From a virus, in the IMG/VR virus record IMGVR_UViG_3300037508_000224, positions 1 through 33,427 of that record: a DNA stretch of 33,427 bases; one strand, given 5' to 3'. The translations under genes and the position numbers were made by a program. The notes under the pieces are model-generated. The model did not search any database. It saw only the letters and a program-made list of their open reading frames with translations, and was not told where the DNA came from. Below, one piece after another: positions 5,366 to 31,397 of this stretch. Position 1 is the stretch's first letter. Each line of letters opens with the position of its first letter.

Positions 5366-6460
5366 ATGAAAAACTTTGAAGTCGCCCCCATCATCGAGCG
5401 TTTCGGTCCTGTCGTTACTGCTGCTGACCTTCGTGCTTATGCTGATGAGATTGGTATGTCTTATCAGACTCTCGCCAAGAAACTGGAGCAGTTTAAGGTG
5501 CATCGCGGCATGTGGCACCTGACTGCGATTGAGCAACTGGAGCAAACTTATAGTCAACCTGCTGTAGAATCTGTGGTCGAAAATCCTGAAAACTTTATTC
5601 CTGCGAAAGATGCTACCTTCGTCAGCTTTGGTAACTTTAGTGATGTTAAGAAGATTATTTCTTCTCGTCAGTATTACCCTATCTTCATCACTGGTCTCTC
5701 TGGCAATGGTAAAACTTTCGGTGTGGAGCAAGCTTGTGCTCAACTGAAGCGTGAGTTGATTCGTGTTAACATCACCATCGAAACCGATGAGGATGATCTG
5801 ATTGGTGGTTTCCGTCTCGTTAACGGTGAGACTGTGTGGCATGATGGACCTGTGGTGCAAGCACTCAACCGTGGCGCTATTCTGCTGTTGGATGAGATTG
5901 ACCTTGCCTCTAACAAAATCCTCTGTCTCCAGTCTGTGCTTGAGGGTAAGGGTGTCTTCCTTAAGAAGATTGGTAAGTATGTCAAACCTGCTGCTGGTTT
6001 TAATGTGGTAGCTACTGCTAACACCAAAGGTAAGGGTAGCGATGATGGTCGCTTCATCGGCACCAACGTGCTTAACGAGGCATTCCTTGAGCGTTTTCCT
6101 GTGACCTTTGAGCAGGCATATCCTACTCCTAAGGTTGAAACTGCCATTCTTAAGAAAGCTTCTGAGTCTCTGAATGCTTACGATTCAGAATTCGTTGACC
6201 GTTTGGTTGCTTGGGCGGAAATCATTCGTAAGACTTTCTACGATGGTGGTGTTGATGAAATCATCTCTACCCGTCGTCTGGTTCACGTTATTCGTGCCTT
6301 CAGCATCTTCGGCAAGCGCAAGAAAGCAATCGAAGTGTGTATTGCTCGTTTTGATGATGAGACTAAGCAATCCTTCATGGAGCTTTACACCAAGATTGAT
6401 GCTTCCATTGATGCTCCTAAGACTGAAACCACTGAACCTGAACTGACTATTGAATCCTGA
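5366..6460 (+). CDS. cobS: MoxR/CobS-like AAA+ ATPase
   Basis: The product has 364 residues with Walker A GLSGNGKT at 110-117 and Walker B LLLDEID at 173-179. A sensor-1-like region (ATANT) and a GRF-containing segment follow, typical of the MoxR group that includes cobaltochelatase subunit CobS. Cyanophage homologues are usually labelled cobS, a porphyrin/cobalamin chelatase subunit. The N-terminal 80 residues lack a recognisable catalytic motif. The start chosen is the ATG at 5366, downstream of the promoter; an in-frame start at 5312 lies inside the terminator. The gene directly follows a VWA protein, so the two probably form a MoxR-VWA machine. A true role in B12 synthesis is not shown by the sequence. 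Confidence 0.85.
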   Translation: MKNFEVAPIIERFGPVVTAADLRAYADEIGMSYQTLAKKLEQFKVHRGMWHLTAIEQLEQTYSQPAVESVVENPENFIPAKDATFVSFGNFSDVKKIISSRQYYPIFITGLSGNGKTFGVEQACAQLKRELIRVNITIETDEDDLIGGFRLVNGETVWHDGPVVQALNRGAILLLDEIDLASNKILCLQSVLEGKGVFLKKIGKYVKPAAGFNVVATANTKGKGSDDGRFIGTNVLNEAFLERFPVTFEQAYPTPKVETAILKKASESLNAYDSEFVDRLVAWAEIIRKTFYDGGVDEIISTRRLVHVIRAFSIFGKRKKAIEVCIARFDDETKQSFMELYTKIDASIDAPKTETTEPELTIES

Positions 6461-15094: not shown

Positions 15095-16463
15095 AACGAC
15101 TATTTTACGCAACCTCCTGTGTAACGAACAGTTCTATAGGAAGGTTGTTCCTTTTGTAAAACCAGATTACTTCAATGAGATTCATGAACGTGTGATCTAT
15201 GAAGAAGTCTGGAACTTCGCAAGCACATATGAATTGGTGCCTACCAAAGAAGTATTAACTATTAACCTTGAAGCAAGAAAAGATTTAAATGAGGAAGTAT
15301 ATCAAAACGCAGTTAAAACAATTGCTGAGTTGTCTACCGATCCAATTGAATATAACTGGTTGCTCGACACCACAGAGAAGTGGTGTAAAGACAGAGCAAT
15401 CTACCTCGCCTTGCTTGAGTCAATCAAGGTCGCGGATGGAGGTAATCCAAAAATATCAAAGGATGCGATTCCCGCAATCCTTCAAGAGGCCCTGGCAGTA
15501 TCGTTCGATGAACATGTAGGTCACGATTACTTAGAGAATAGCGTAGAGCGATATGAGTTCTACCATCGTGAAGAAGATAAGATTCCTTTCCACCTCGAAT
15601 ACTTCAATAAGATTACAAAAGGTGGTCTGCCAAACAAGACTCTTAATGTAGCTCTTGCTGGCACTGGTGTAGGTAAGTCACTATTCATGTGTGACCTTGC
15701 CGCTCATTGTTTATCAATGGGTCGTAACGTTCTCTACATCACTATGGAAATGGCAGAGGAGAAGATTGCCGAACGTATTGATGCTAATCTATTCAACGTC
15801 AACATCAAAGACCTTGTAGATTTGCCTGAGACAATCTTTCAAAGTCGCATCAATGAACTGAAGCGTAAAACACAAGGTCGTCTTATCATCAAAGAATATC
15901 CAACAGCATCAGCGCATGTCGGTCATTTCAAATCTCTGCTGAACGAACTACAACTGAAGAAGACATTCAAACCAGATATTATTTTTATTGATTATCTTAA
16001 CATCTGTGCTTCGGCTAGATACAAAGGAGCTATTGTAAACTCTTACACCTATGTTAAAGCGATTGCTGAAGAACTTAGGGGATTGGCGGTTGAACATAAC
16101 GTTCCTCTTGTCTCCGCTACTCAAACTACTAGAAGTGGATTCGGCAACTCTGATGTTGACCTCACTGATACTTCTGAATCTTTTGGTCTACCCGCTACTG
16201 CTGACTTCATGTTTGCTCTTATTGCTACAGAGGATCTAGAGAAGGATGGTAAGATTATGGTTAAGCAGTTGAAGAACCGATATAACGATCCCACCATGTA
16301 TAAGCGTTTCCTTGTTGGGGTTGACAGAGCACGTATGAAGTTGTATAATGTTGACAATGCTGTTGACCTTTCTTCAGATAAAGAAGAAGAATATGACTTT
16401 GAAGAAATGGCAGCAGAGCAAAGTAGAAACACGCAAAGTAAATTTACCAGTTTTATTTTATGA
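15081..16463 (+). CDS. 41: Replicative DNA helicase gp41 (DnaB-like)
   Basis: The product has 460 residues, close to T4 gp41 (475). It has an N-terminal DnaB-type helical domain, then the RecA core with Walker A GTGVGKS at 194-200, a Walker B strand IIFIDYLNI and an SATQTTR motif. It unwinds the fork and works with primase gp61, encoded at 23819. The C terminus FTSFIL closely resembles the clamp-binding tail of gp43. It overlaps uvsX by 14 bases and the mazG gene by four bases. Confidence 0.95.
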
Positions 16464-16864
16464 CAATTGATTTTAATAAGTATGTTGAGTTTGTTGGTGC
16501 CGTCACCAGTCCAGCATCACGCGATACTAGTGAGTTTGTTGCTCGTATTGTAGAACTTAGAGATGAAGGTGCTGATATTCAGCGTCTCATGACTGCTGCT
16601 TGTGGTATTACAGCTGAGGGTGGGGAGTTTACTGAGATTGTGAAAAAGATTGCTTTCCAAGGTAAACCTTATAACGAAGATAACATCTTCCATATGAAAC
16701 GTGAACTCGGTGACATTCTGTGGTATGTTGCTCAAGCATGTATTGCTCTTAATATTTCGTTTGAAGAAATTGCTCAAATGAATTTTGAGAAACTGACTGC
16801 TCGATATCCAGAAGGAACCTTCAGTATTGAACGAAGTGAAAACAGAGTCGCCAACGACCTTTGA
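16460..16864 (+). CDS. mazG: MazG-like nucleotide pyrophosphohydrolase
   Basis: The product has 134 residues. It contains the all-alpha NTP pyrophosphohydrolase signature: EGGEFTEIVKK (the ExxE metal site) and about 25 residues later ELGDILWYVAQ (the ExxD site). MazG hydrolyses NTPs or dNTPs to monophosphates; in cyanophages it has been proposed to alter alarmone levels or to recycle host nucleotides. It overlaps gp41 by four bases and is followed by a terminator-type hairpin. The family assignment is good; the physiological substrate is open. Confidence 0.9.
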   Translation: MTIDFNKYVEFVGAVTSPASRDTSEFVARIVELRDEGADIQRLMTAACGITAEGGEFTEIVKKIAFQGKPYNEDNIFHMKRELGDILWYVAQACIALNISFEEIAQMNFEKLTARYPEGTFSIERSENRVANDL

Positions 16865-16870
16865 TGCTTG

Positions 16871-16899
16871 CCTCCCCTAAATAATTGGGGAGGTATTTT
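16871..16899 (+). terminator. Terminator-type hairpin whose 3' arm is a ribosome site
   Basis: CCTCCCC (16871-16877) pairs perfectly with GGGGAGG (16887-16893) around a 9-base loop, followed by a TATTTTT tract. The loop contains the late promoter core. GGGGAGG is also the Shine-Dalgarno sequence for the ATG at 16903. Confidence 0.75.
16877..16883 (+). promoter_or_regulatory. Late promoter core (CTAAATA) inside the hairpin loop
   Basis: By T4 late spacing the transcript would begin near 16889, after the 5' arm, leaving GGAGG free 9 bases before the ATG. Confidence 0.5.
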
Positions 16900-16902
16900 T
16901 AT

Positions 16903-18186
16903 ATGGCAGGCGGTAAAGGACTAACTTGGGGAGAAATAACCAAAAGATACAAACAGTGTTTTGAGGTTATATACGACAGAATTAAAAACGACAGACCATT
17001 TATTTTGTTGGATAAAAATAGATTGTCTGAAGATAATGGCGTGGAAATTTATTTTAAAATGGTTGGCATTAGCATACCAGAAAAAGTAAATGGCAGGTGG
17101 AAACAAAGTAAAGAGTTTATAGAATTTCAACCAAAAAAATTTACTTCATTTGAAAATTTTTATTCTGGGAAAAATGGTATATTGAAAACAATAGAAAATT
17201 CAATTAAAAATACTCCAAATTTAGATAAAGCTCCTTTTCGTGTAAATTTTTATACAACAACAACAAAGTCAACTGCTAGTTCTATTAATAGTGGAAAAAT
17301 TTTAAAAGATAATGGAATGGGAATGGATGTTGGTTTTGGTGGAAAAGTTTCTGGTGGAAGTAAACCTGGAATGTATTGGGGCAAATTAGGATTTTATGTG
17401 AATACAATTGACTCTTCATATTCACTGAATGACCCATCAGCAACCGAACAAGGAGAAGCAGATTTTATAAACACCTTTAATAAAGAACTTGATAATCTTG
17501 GTGTTCCATCTATAGACTTACAAATAGGAAATAAAACTTTTTCTAATATTGTTGGGGTTAATAAAGTTGAAGGAAAGGTCAAAGCAGATCTTGCCTTTGT
17601 TGCTTTAGAAAATAGAAAACTTGTAGATGTTGCTTGGTTTTCTCATAAGCAAGGATCTCGTGCCAGTCATTTTCAGCAATGGGGTGGCGTTAGTCATTAT
17701 GCAAATGATAAGGATGGAGCAGATGAAACCTTAGATAAGTTTCCAGAGATTAGAGCTTTTGCGAAATACCTTTCTAATTTTTGCGGTGCTGGAATGCAGT
17801 ATGATTTTCAGCAATCCAGTGGAAGAGGTTTTACCGCCATGATGGAAATTGAAGATACTGCTTTAAAAATGGAATCTGTTTATGGGAAAAATTTTGGAAC
17901 TTCCACATACGGAATATCTAATTGTACGGGAGTTTTACAAGGAACACCATCATTAAGAAAAATAGGAAGTAAATATAAATTAGAAATGTCTGCTCATTTA
18001 ATTATGAATCCAACTCCTATGACGGGGGATTATGAACCAGTATTAATGCTTATTAACAAAGGTGATAGGCGACAGTATGGCATCCAAGGTGCTAGAGTAG
18101 TGGTTCAACCGAGGGCGAGTCGCGCCGCAAAATTCATCGTGTCGAAAGACCGCAAAGGAAACTACCAAATGCATCCAGTAACATGA
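16903..18186 (+). CDS. Unknown phage protein, PD-(D/E)XK nuclease-like
   Basis: The product has 427 residues from the ATG at 16903, preceded by GGAGG at 9 bases; a TTG at 16885 would sit in the hairpin. It contains VKADLAF near 226 followed by WFSHKQGS near 245, then FQQWGGVSHY. An acidic residue, a strand and then SHK resembles the active site of diverged PD-(D/E)XK nucleases in phages, but the match is weak. The first 380 residues use very AT-rich codons, while the last 30 are G+C-richer, suggesting a mosaic origin. It overlaps the next gene by four bases. Confidence 0.7.
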   Translation: MAGGKGLTWGEITKRYKQCFEVIYDRIKNDRPFILLDKNRLSEDNGVEIYFKMVGISIPEKVNGRWKQSKEFIEFQPKKFTSFENFYSGKNGILKTIENSIKNTPNLDKAPFRVNFYTTTTKSTASSINSGKILKDNGMGMDVGFGGKVSGGSKPGMYWGKLGFYVNTIDSSYSLNDPSATEQGEADFINTFNKELDNLGVPSIDLQIGNKTFSNIVGVNKVEGKVKADLAFVALENRKLVDVAWFSHKQGSRASHFQQWGGVSHYANDKDGADETLDKFPEIRAFAKYLSNFCGAGMQYDFQQSSGRGFTAMMEIEDTALKMESVYGKNFGTSTYGISNCTGVLQGTPSLRKIGSKYKLEMSAHLIMNPTPMTGDYEPVLMLINKGDRRQYGIQGARVVVQPRASRAAKFIVSKDRKGNYQMHPVT

Positions 18187-21057: not shown

Positions 21058-21078
21058 TAATCAAATCATATGTGCTTG

Positions 21079-21103
21079 GGGATGCTTAGGCATCCCTTTT
21101 TTT
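21079..21103 (+). terminator. Terminator between the short ORF and the Ig-domain gene
   Basis: GGGATGC (21079-21085), loop TTAG, GCATCCC (21090-21096), then seven T. The late promoter follows at once. Confidence 0.92.
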
Positions 21104-21110
21104 ATAAATA
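21103..21110 (+). promoter_or_regulatory. Late promoter (TATAAATA) of the Ig-domain gene
   Basis: A full TATAAATA core directly after the terminator T-run. AGAGGAAA and the ATG at 21147 follow. Confidence 0.75.
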
Positions 21111-21146
21111 CTTTTTAGAAAAGCAAATATTGTATAGAGGAAACCG

Positions 21147-22265
21147 ATGGCAATTTTCGGAACAATTGACGCAAAGGCGTTAGCAAATAATGTTAGTGTT
21201 ACTAATGGTAGCACAACTGTTACTACAACTGGCGACTTCACTGATAGAACAACCAACGATTTTGTTCAAAACGGAGACGTTCTTTCTTTATCTGGTGTTC
21301 AGTATACTGTTGAGTCTGTAGTTTCGGCAACCACACTCAAACTTAAAGTAGCATACGCAGGCACAACTGGAACCGTTACTGCTGCTAATGCTATTCGCAG
21401 AACTCCTCCAAAAGAAGTAGCAGCTCGTCTTCTACATGAAAGTCATTATCCAAGCGGCACTAATTTTATTTTCGTTGATGATACCGAAGCTGCTTTAGAA
21501 GAGAATAAGATTCGTGGTCTCAAGTGGCCAGGTTGGTGGTTATATAGAACCTACACTGATGGCGACGGCAACACTCGTCACAAGGCAGAGTGTATTGCGT
21601 TTGCCAATCAGACCGCTGCTAACGCTGGTGACTATGGCACCGCTCAGGGTGGAACCGAAGATAATCCTGCTGCTGATGTAGCATCTGCTATTACAATTTC
21701 TGGACAACCTGCTAACGCCACTGCTTTCACACCTGCTGGTTCGATTACCAATTACACAGCTGGAACAACTACAACTATTGTTGGTCAAGCAAATCAAGTT
21801 TATACTCTAACTGGTCTTGCTGGATCAGTTGCTGGAACTGGAGCAGCATTCACTGTAACCAGAGGTGCTGGTGGAGCAGTAAGCAGTGTTGCTATTACTG
21901 CTGTTGGTACTGGATTTGCTGCTGCCGAAACCATTACTATTCTTGGTTCTCTAATTGGTGGTGTTGATGTAACTGATAATTTGGTACTCACTGTAACTGC
22001 TGTTGGAACTGCTGCTGCTACCTTCTCGGTAACTGCTGCGGTTGGAACTGGAACTCTCATCTATCAGTGGCAAGTTCAAAATGCTTCGCAGACAACTAAG
22101 TGGAGCAACATCACTGGTGCTACATCATCTTCACTTGCGCTCACTGGTCTTCTCGTTGGTGACAGCGGTAAGAAATATCGTGTCAAGATTGGTGGATCTG
22201 CTGGAGGCGAGGAAGTTATTTCTAATACAGCAACCCTAACAGTTGATAATAATAATTTTGCTTGA
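21147..22265 (+). CDS. Virion-type structural protein with a C-terminal Ig-like domain
   Basis: The product has 372 residues. The N-terminal 180 residues (with GLKWPGWWLYRTYTDGDGN) look like a conserved globular head. The middle is a Gly/Ala/Thr-rich beta repeat region, and residues about 302-372 form an Ig-like domain (LIYQWQVQ...SLALTGL...GKKYRVKIGG). Ig-like domains are common on phage surface proteins and are thought to bind cell surfaces weakly. Thr/Ala-rich composition, a late promoter and a strong ribosome site fit a virion protein. The exact virion location is unknown. Confidence 0.8.
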   Translation: MAIFGTIDAKALANNVSVTNGSTTVTTTGDFTDRTTNDFVQNGDVLSLSGVQYTVESVVSATTLKLKVAYAGTTGTVTAANAIRRTPPKEVAARLLHESHYPSGTNFIFVDDTEAALEENKIRGLKWPGWWLYRTYTDGDGNTRHKAECIAFANQTAANAGDYGTAQGGTEDNPAADVASAITISGQPANATAFTPAGSITNYTAGTTTTIVGQANQVYTLTGLAGSVAGTGAAFTVTRGAGGAVSSVAITAVGTGFAAAETITILGSLIGGVDVTDNLVLTVTAVGTAAATFSVTAAVGTGTLIYQWQVQNASQTTKWSNITGATSSSLALTGLLVGDSGKKYRVKIGGSAGGEEVISNTATLTVDNNNFA

Positions 22266-28279: not shown

Positions 28280-28413
28280 GAAAGAAAAAAATAGAAAAGA
28301 TTCAAAAGAAACTCAGGGAGCAGGAACAAAATATAGAGAATTTAAATCATCAACAAAGGTGGATACTAAAGATTCTAATGGAAAAATTCCAGATCCCTGG
28401 TTCAACTGAATAG
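28276..28413 (+). CDS. Tiny basic/coiled-coil ORF after nrdB
   Basis: A GTG start overlapping the nrdB stop (GTGA) opens a 45-residue frame beginning VRKKKIEKIQKKLREQEQ and ending in an amphipathic stretch. Most of the same interval is also open in another frame ending NGKIPDPWFN with a TGA at 28409, so which is translated is not certain. Only the spacing and helix-like composition support this choice. No function is assigned. Confidence 0.4.
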   Translation: MRKKKIEKIQKKLREQEQNIENLNHQQRWILKILMEKFQIPGSTE

Positions 28414-28420
28414 ATAAATA
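28414..28420 (+). promoter_or_regulatory. Late promoter (ATAAATA) before the nuclease-like gene
   Basis: ATAAATA lies right before the 5' arm of a hairpin. The start is expected near 28426, just after that arm. Confidence 0.6.
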
Positions 28421-28441
28421 CCTCCATCTTGGAGGTTTTTT
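28421..28441 (+). terminator. Terminator hairpin containing the next ribosome site
   Basis: CCTCC (28421-28425), loop ATCTT, GGAGG (28431-28435), then six T. GGAGG is also the ribosome site 9 bases before the ATG at 28445. Confidence 0.75.
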
Positions 28442-28444
28442 ATT

Positions 28445-28792
28445 ATGCGCCCACAATCAGCAAAAGCAAAAGGTCGCCGTCTGCAACAATGGGTGAGAGA
28501 TAAACTGGTAGAGTGTCTCAATATTCATCCAGAAGATATTGAATCACGCTCTATGGGGGCAGGTGGTGAAGACCTTATCATGGCTCGTGCTGCTAGATTA
28601 AAGTTTCCTCATAGCATTGAATGTAAGAATGTAGAGAAGCTAAATATCTGGGATGCTTACGAGCAAGCATCTGCCAACTGTGGTGACTATGAGCCTATTG
28701 TTGTCATGAAAAAGAATGGCAAAAAACCACTGGTCGTAGTAGACGCAGAGTATTACATTCAACTATTCGGAGACAAAGATGGCAAAGATTGA
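28445..28792 (+). CDS. Putative PD-(D/E)XK endonuclease
   Basis: The product has 115 residues. Asp43 in GEDLIMA is followed by Glu59 and Lys61 in IECK, the D...ExK active-site arrangement of the PD-(D/E)XK nuclease fold, with basic N-terminal residues and a helix WDAYEQA after the motif. Small proteins of this kind in phages include Holliday-junction-type and VRR-like nucleases. GGAGG lies 9 bases before the start. It overlaps the peptidase gene by 14 bases. The DNA structure it cuts is unknown; a recombination or packaging role fits. Confidence 0.78.
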   Translation: MRPQSAKAKGRRLQQWVRDKLVECLNIHPEDIESRSMGAGGEDLIMARAARLKFPHSIECKNVEKLNIWDAYEQASANCGDYEPIVVMKKNGKKPLVVVDAEYYIQLFGDKDGKD

Positions 28793-30961: not shown

Positions 30962-30968
30962 ATAAATA
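30962..30968 (+). promoter_or_regulatory. Late promoter (ATAAATA) overlapping a hairpin
   Basis: ATAAATA; the start is expected near 30974, inside the 5' arm of the following hairpin. Confidence 0.5.
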
Positions 30969-30970
30969 TT

Positions 30971-30995
30971 GGGGAGTGCTGCAGAACTCCCCTTT
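30971..30995 (+). terminator. Hairpin terminator after the RlpA-like gene
   Basis: GGGGAGT (30971-30977) pairs with ACTCCCC (30986-30992) around an 8-base loop, with only three T following. It could be a weak terminator. Confidence 0.6.
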
Positions 30996-31397
30996 ATGTT
31001 TAACTTTCACATTGGCAAGCCCTCTAAAAAAACTATTATAACAACCAGTATAGTATTATCTTCTATTATCGCAGCACTTTCACAATGTACAGGAATCCAT
31101 GAAAACAATCTTTGGGATTTATTTGACGAGATTCAAAGAAAATATTTCCCACAAACTTCTATTAACAGGGTTATTACTGAAGACCCTGACAAAGTAAAAC
31201 GTAGAGTAGAAAGAGATGTCACCAATGCTATCAATGATTATTGGAGACAATCTGGTTTATCAAAAGCAGAAGTATACAAACCACGCTATATAGAAGAAGC
31301 AAATGACGAAACATTATGCTACAGTGATGAGTGTAAAGCACTCGCCCCTCCAATGAGACTCTGTGCTCCATGGCTTGACAACTGCCCTCAGCAGTGA
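30996..31397 (+). CDS. Membrane-anchored protein with paired cysteines
   Basis: The product has 133 residues from the ATG at 30996. Residues about 13-30 (TIITTSIVLSSIIAALSQ) are a membrane anchor or signal, then a helical charged region (KVKRRVERDVTNAINDYW), then a Cys-rich end with four cysteines. The layout is that of a protein facing the periplasm. No ribosome site is visible before the ATG, as expected if the late mRNA starts just upstream. It lies in the lysis island, so a spanin-like role is possible but unproven. Confidence 0.68.
   Translation: MFNFHIGKPSKKTIITTSIVLSSIIAALSQCTGIHENNLWDLFDEIQRKYFPQTSINRVITEDPDKVKRRVERDVTNAINDYWRQSGLSKAEVYKPRYIEEANDETLCYSDECKALAPPMRLCAPWLDNCPQQ

Follow-up and report, generated by a model that had tools for sequence, protein, structure and literature searches.

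A probable late gate of the T4 gene e type, with a late promoter nested in a terminator-like hairpin, behind mazG of a T4-like cyanophage

The window analysed here is the whole 33,427-nucleotide stretch of IMG/VR record IMGVR_UViG_3300037508_000224. It covers part of a T4-like cyanophage genome, and its best DNA matches are nearly all T4-like cyanophages. Genes for a gp41-type helicase, uvsX and DNA polymerase are located upstream of mazG (16460..16864, + strand), which encodes a MazG-like pyrophosphatase (PHROG phrog_229, E 1.8e-53; Pfam MazG, E 2.7e-9). A short hairpin element at 16871-16905 is co-directional with mazG, whose stop codon lies 6 nt 5' of the 7-bp arm of the hairpin. The element is followed by an ORF of 427 aa (16903..18186, + strand; phrog_13937).

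Invariant E, D and SHK residues are present in the 427-aa protein. The structure model of the full-length protein has a mean pLDDT of 72 and a pTM of 0.52, and the model of the domain alone is poorer. No relative was found in a PDB sequence search, no match in NCBIfam and no significant match by Foldseek with the model. In a VIA-align comparison of residues 179-403 of the model, the top rows are mostly restriction-like nucleases, with Z of 3-5. The C-terminal half of the model weakly resembles PD-(D/E)XK nucleases, so that a nuclease function is no more than suggested. Behind the same leader, the slot after mazG is occupied by genes of several different protein families. By eye, several of the genes in this slot (window 16903-18186; L002, L006, L017, L034, L039) carry D...xxK-type motifs. 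In another contig (L054, 2900-3001), a homologue of the 427-aa gene follows a tRNA gene, and its leader keeps CTAAATA and has lost the hairpin.

The core of the stem is formed by CCTCCCC (16871-16877) and GGGGAGG (16887-16893), and the outer pairs T16869-A16895 and G16870-T16894 lengthen it to 9 bp with a folding energy of -16.4 kcal/mol. The full 5' arm TGCCTCCCC (16869..16877) and 3' arm GGGGAGGTA (16887..16895) enclose the 9-nt loop TAAATAATT (16878-16886), which contains the TAAATA core at 16878-16883. The 3' arm harbors the Shine-Dalgarno sequence (SD) GGAGG, and a spacer of 9 nt separates GGGGAGG from the ATG at 16903. The T-rich tract TATTTTTAT (16894..16902, 9 nt) comes directly after the GC-rich stem, completing a signal that resembles an intrinsic terminator. 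The putative late promoter box of T4 type, CCTAAATA (16876..16883), matches TATAAATA at six of eight positions and has CC for TA at the other two. All these features are on the + strand. In T4 the spacing of late promoters is about one helical turn (PMC2988020), and with the box set at -13 to -6 the predicted start (+1) falls at 16889, 13 nt past the first base of the box. The pairing of the two arms, the 9-base gap to the ATG and the position of TAAATA in the loop had been described in the first-pass annotation and are correct to the base; its predicted start near 16889 was obtained here again. When Rfam covariance models were run over the window, three tRNAs alone reached threshold and the 16871 element was unmatched, which excludes an RNA identity known to Rfam. 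The tolerance of one arm for U-G wobble intermediates also makes a role as a DNA cruciform unlikely.

We consider it probable that the element acts as a late gate like that of T4 gene e, in which terminator and ribosome-site mask are combined with a nested late promoter. RNA polymerase from the early/middle genes (gp41, mazG) would run on and copy both arms, and the hairpin with its T tract would stop most of the read-through RNA. In the RNA that survives, the 3' arm would keep the SD locked. At late times of infection, a gp55-type sigma factor would read CCTAAATA in the loop, and RNA would be made from about 16889. This late RNA would begin GGAGGUAUUUUUAUAUG; it would contain no 5' arm, form neither terminator nor mask, and leave the ribosome site free. 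The first-pass annotation had proposed that read-through RNA is blocked and late RNA escapes; the logic of this proposal is supported by comparative anatomy, T4 precedents and folding, whereas the start site, termination, masking, translation and timing keep the standing of predictions. Every reference cyanophage examined has a gp55 homologue, as do the large relatives G001, G003 and G005; none was found in the 33-kb window fragment or in fragment G002. The late box NATAAATA has been reported for S-PM2, and abundant aquatic phages lack the T4 middle regulator motA (PMC2984593).

This kind of control is already established in T4, and the idea in the first-pass annotation belongs to it, as the published T4 cases demonstrate (PMC3014915; PMC2988022). 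Long early transcripts of T4 gene e form an inhibitory structure and give about 100-fold less lysozyme, and the late transcripts lack the 5' part of that structure; soc, 49 and I-TevI are listed as further cases (PMC3014915), to which I-TevII, I-TevIII, segB and mobE were added (PMC2988022). In the gene e leader (layout CCTTCTATAAATACTTAGGAGGTATTATG; longer stretch TATAAATACCTTCTATAAATACTTAGGAGGTATTATG), the loop contains the late box, the 3' arm contains the SD, and late RNA starts from the SD, as predicted for the 16871 element; the downstream late RNA of gene e would start GAGGUAUUAUG. The stem of gene e, ACCTTCTA..TTAGGAGGT, is almost that of the 16871 element. Unlike the latter, gene e has no T tract 3' of its stem and hence no terminator, and the gene, the host and the downstream function differ. 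The cyanophage version possesses the T tract and should therefore also terminate transcription. In I-TevI, I-TevII, I-TevIII, segB and Aeh1 mobE, a hairpin of the early/middle RNA likewise covers the ribosome site (PMC2988022), and late RNA, owing to the position of its promoter, is unable to form this hairpin; these are homing endonuclease genes, for which no terminator function is reported. The cyanophage device differs from the T4 cases in its T tract, its compact form, its repeated occurrence in cyanophages and the genes it controls, and the papers searched contained no description of the element in cyanophages. The gene e design, the recurrence within the window and among T4-like phages, and the separability of the two halves described below go beyond the first-pass annotation.

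The costs of opening the SD, estimated by folding, separate the two kinds of RNA. For the 16871 element, the cost is 7.5 kcal/mol in read-through RNA versus 0.5 in RNA from 16889, and RNAs starting at 16885-16888 require 0.9-2.4 kcal/mol. The cost drops from 13.2 to 3.3 (P1) or 0.7 (P2) kcal/mol in T4 gene e, from 9.8 to 1.8 in T4 gene 49 and from 11.2 to 2.7 in the resolvase gene of the window, and it is unchanged in the control, a late gene with a tandem (non-nested) arrangement. As in the T4 gene e/49/I-TevI type, the SD thus lies within the hairpin, both by folding and by sequence, and on sequence geometry the late RNA from the predicted +1 at 16889 would lack the 5' arm. The best fold of the 16871 read-through RNA contains a longer alternative helix in which the SD is partly mixed (SD unpaired 0.19). 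This alternative helix counts against the gate, together with the imperfect box, the loop of 9 nt, which is long for a strong terminator, the hairpin lost in L054, the poor T tracts of L434, L436 and L438, and the boxes of some marine phages that lie upstream of the hairpin.

The window contains further elements, which fall into two registers. In register A, represented by the 16871 element, the loop contains the box, and all 44 elements have their predicted start past the 5' arm. In register B, positions -5 to -1 are taken up by the CCTCC of the 5' arm, and at most two bases of this arm are left in RNA from the predicted +1. Register B is represented by the second nested element (28413..28445, + strand), composed of the box GATAAATA (28413-28420), the hairpin ACCTCCA/TGGAGGT (28420-28436) with the SD in its 3' arm, a T tract, and the ATG at 28445; RNA from its predicted start at 28426 would retain no more than one base of the 5' arm. 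The gene behind it (28445..28792, + strand) is located directly after nrdA/nrdB and encodes a RusA-like Holliday junction resolvase (phrog_244, E 4.2e-22), with a Pfam PDDEXK_15 match below the cut-off. T4 gene 49 (endonuclease VII) has the same register before the same kind of enzyme, with its box beside the hairpin, its start where the 5' arm ends and its SD in the 3' arm, whereas the two resolvases are unrelated and the T tract in T4 is weak. The third nested element (30963..30996, + strand) has TAAATA at 30963-30968, the hairpin GGGGAGT/ACTCCCC at 30971-30992 and an ATG at 30996; its 3' arm carries no SD, and the S-PM2 orthologue of the gene keeps the element with a different stem. In addition, a non-nested counterpart is found at 21078..21147 (+ strand), where the terminator GGGGATGC/GCATCCCT (21078-21097) is followed by TATAAATA (21103-21110) and a head-protein ORF at 21147. 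Such tandem pairs of terminator and late promoter, which are common and also occur in several cyanophages, would likewise insulate late genes against RNA from upstream and pass late RNA; they differ in that the promoter stands after a complete terminator and the ribosome site is unmasked.

The common tandem pairs also speak for a simpler reading, in which the hairpin only insulates the late gene as a terminator, nesting of the promoter keeps late RNA itself from being terminated, and tight space alone accounts for the overlap between SD and 3' arm. Most upstream genes at nested elements end within about 25 nt, which fits this reading. Moreover, the stem carries a T tract and no SD in S-CAM9, S-PRM1, S-CRM01 and Syn33 and at window 30963, and the T tract is also kept in L015, L036 and L044, in which the SD lies elsewhere or a free second SD exists. 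RBS masking is therefore not universal among the elements. Against insulation as the sole function, the SD is located in the 3' arm of most register-A and resolvase elements, L434, L436 and L438 keep the hairpin over the SD while their T tract is degraded, and T4 gene e masks without any T tract. We regard this reading as a real possibility, short of an even chance.

The opposite reading attributes only RBS masking to the hairpin, in the style of T4 gene e, and takes the T-rich tract as an AU-rich ribosome spacer that does not terminate. A T-rich spacer can help translation initiation. The long loop of 9 nt and the translational nature of the T4 precedents (PMC3014915; PMC2988022) are also in its favor. 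The T tract, however, stays beside the stem when the SD is elsewhere, and the T fraction between SD and ATG is 0.78 at the 16871 element against a mean of 0.32 for 123 genes behind a TAAATA box, a contrast that is if anything understated because this set includes a few nested elements. Masking by itself is thus improbable. Since the T tract is kept without an SD in the stem, and the SD stem is kept in L434, L436 and L438 with a poor T tract, the terminator and mask halves are separable; most elements, including that at 16871, have both, as in the two-layer gate that we favor.

The combination of features recurs well beyond the window. Among 15 T4-like genomes and large contigs, TAAATA in a hairpin with a T tract and a start codon was found in 25 cases (17 distinct genes), and 14 permuted hexamers gave 1-8 cases each, with a mean of about 3, some of these being variants of the device themselves. 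The corresponding rates are 10.3 per 1000 occurrences for TAAATA versus 0.3-2.4 for the permuted hexamers. Permuted hexamers can overlap TATAAATA, which partly confounds whole-genome counts made with neither a start-codon nor a T-tract filter; the counts given here exclude these overlaps. A 7-bp stem by itself would not be rare, and the excess over chance concerns the combination, whose occurrence ahead of an ORF is not due to chance. IMG/VR contigs of T4-like cyanophages contain CCCCTAAATA..GGGGAGG, with a T tract and an ATG behind it, before many unrelated ORFs. The exact CCTCCCC element is not a genome-wide repeat, with about one such strong hairpin per genome. What recurs is the architecture of the device, not its sequence.

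Two homologue sets were gathered through protein similarity alone, not by a DNA motif. CTAAATA lies in a hairpin in 24 of the 35 distinct phrog_8438 leaders, and the device is present in 41 of the 63 distinct leaders of RusA-like resolvases, both lists being read by eye; for the latter a script flags 45, four of which were discounted as chance stems. At identical stem positions, the pair tables contain C-G, U-G and U-A, i.e., compensatory substitutions with U-G intermediates. These pairs were counted from the arms directly because MAFFT alignments of the leaders misplace the 3' arms, and a shuffle made with sequences picked for having a hairpin is not independent evidence. CTAAATA is invariant in 24 aligned elements, in which the stem varies. 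Orthologues keep the same architecture with other stems, as in the neck gene of G001 (TATAAATACCTCTAGGAAACTAGAGG) vs S-PM2 (CCCTATCTGATAAATACAGGTAGGG) and in the window gene vs S-CAM9/S-PRM1 (AATAAATAAGAGGGCTCAGGCCCTCT). In some marine phages, the TAAATA box stands 5' of a complete hairpin, so that not every box obeys the rule. Anatomy, recurrence, covariation and the gene e parallel can all be read from sequence comparison.

These comparisons bear on two further explanations. If promoter, terminator and ribosome site overlapped only by compaction of a short intergenic space, with no regulation, the mazG stop 6 nt from the hairpin and the other upstream gaps, mostly below 25 nt, would be expected. 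The predicted start, however, falls past the 5' arm in two registers and with several unrelated stems, the rule holds in the orthologues with other stems, and compensatory changes preserve the stem; compaction without regulation is very unlikely. Equally, TAAATA might be no promoter and the hairpin a plain terminator of mazG, with the gene expressed from elsewhere. The imperfect box CCTAAATA agrees with this, but the invariant CTAAATA beside a variable stem, its retention in L054 in spite of the lost hairpin, and the rarity of permuted hexamers in such hairpins make a plain terminator most improbable.

Other arrangements were observed around related genes. In a marine clade (L464, L466, L467, L469, L470, L481, L483, L484, L485), TTCTAAATAGTTCT and then ATG are located just 5' of the phrog_8438 ORF; late RNA is predicted to start on the A of this ATG, there is no hairpin, and the late mRNA would be leaderless, possibly another way to limit translation to late RNA. 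Six contigs (L005, L007, L021, L028, L037, L040) contain CCCCTAAATATTAGGGGAGG, without a T tract, between two tail-type genes, and the next ORF has no ATG, GTG or TTG near the SD; ATT (GGGGAGGTTAATAGC-ATT) looks like its start codon. In S-CAM9, the annotated start of BOW85_gp099 (L098, ~5700-5923) is about 220 nt too far downstream, and the ATG directly after the nested element is likely the true start, as in S-PRM1.

Nested late promoters stand before Holliday junction resolvases in the window (28413-28445), in L353, L325, L413, L322 and L341, in S-PM2 (record position 115176), and in T4 (minus strand near 46885). The RuvC-like resolvases of other contigs have the same register as window 28413 and T4 gene 49. 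Judged by their leaders, three unrelated resolvase families (T4 endonuclease VII, RusA-like and RuvC-like) share the device. We tentatively suggest that the two-layer gate may be reused across T4-like phages whose bacterial hosts are remote from E. coli, keeping DNA-cutting enzymes back until late transcription, before the three resolvase families and before rotating, possibly nuclease-like genes behind mazG. If this is true, a trick proven in T4 would be a common compact device of abundant aquatic phages, with promoter, terminator and ribosome site in about 35 bp. Late gene starts would then be predictable from sequence, and annotated starts could be corrected, as in S-CAM9. It would also suggest why unrelated resolvases evolved the same control, as cutting branched DNA during replication would be harmful.
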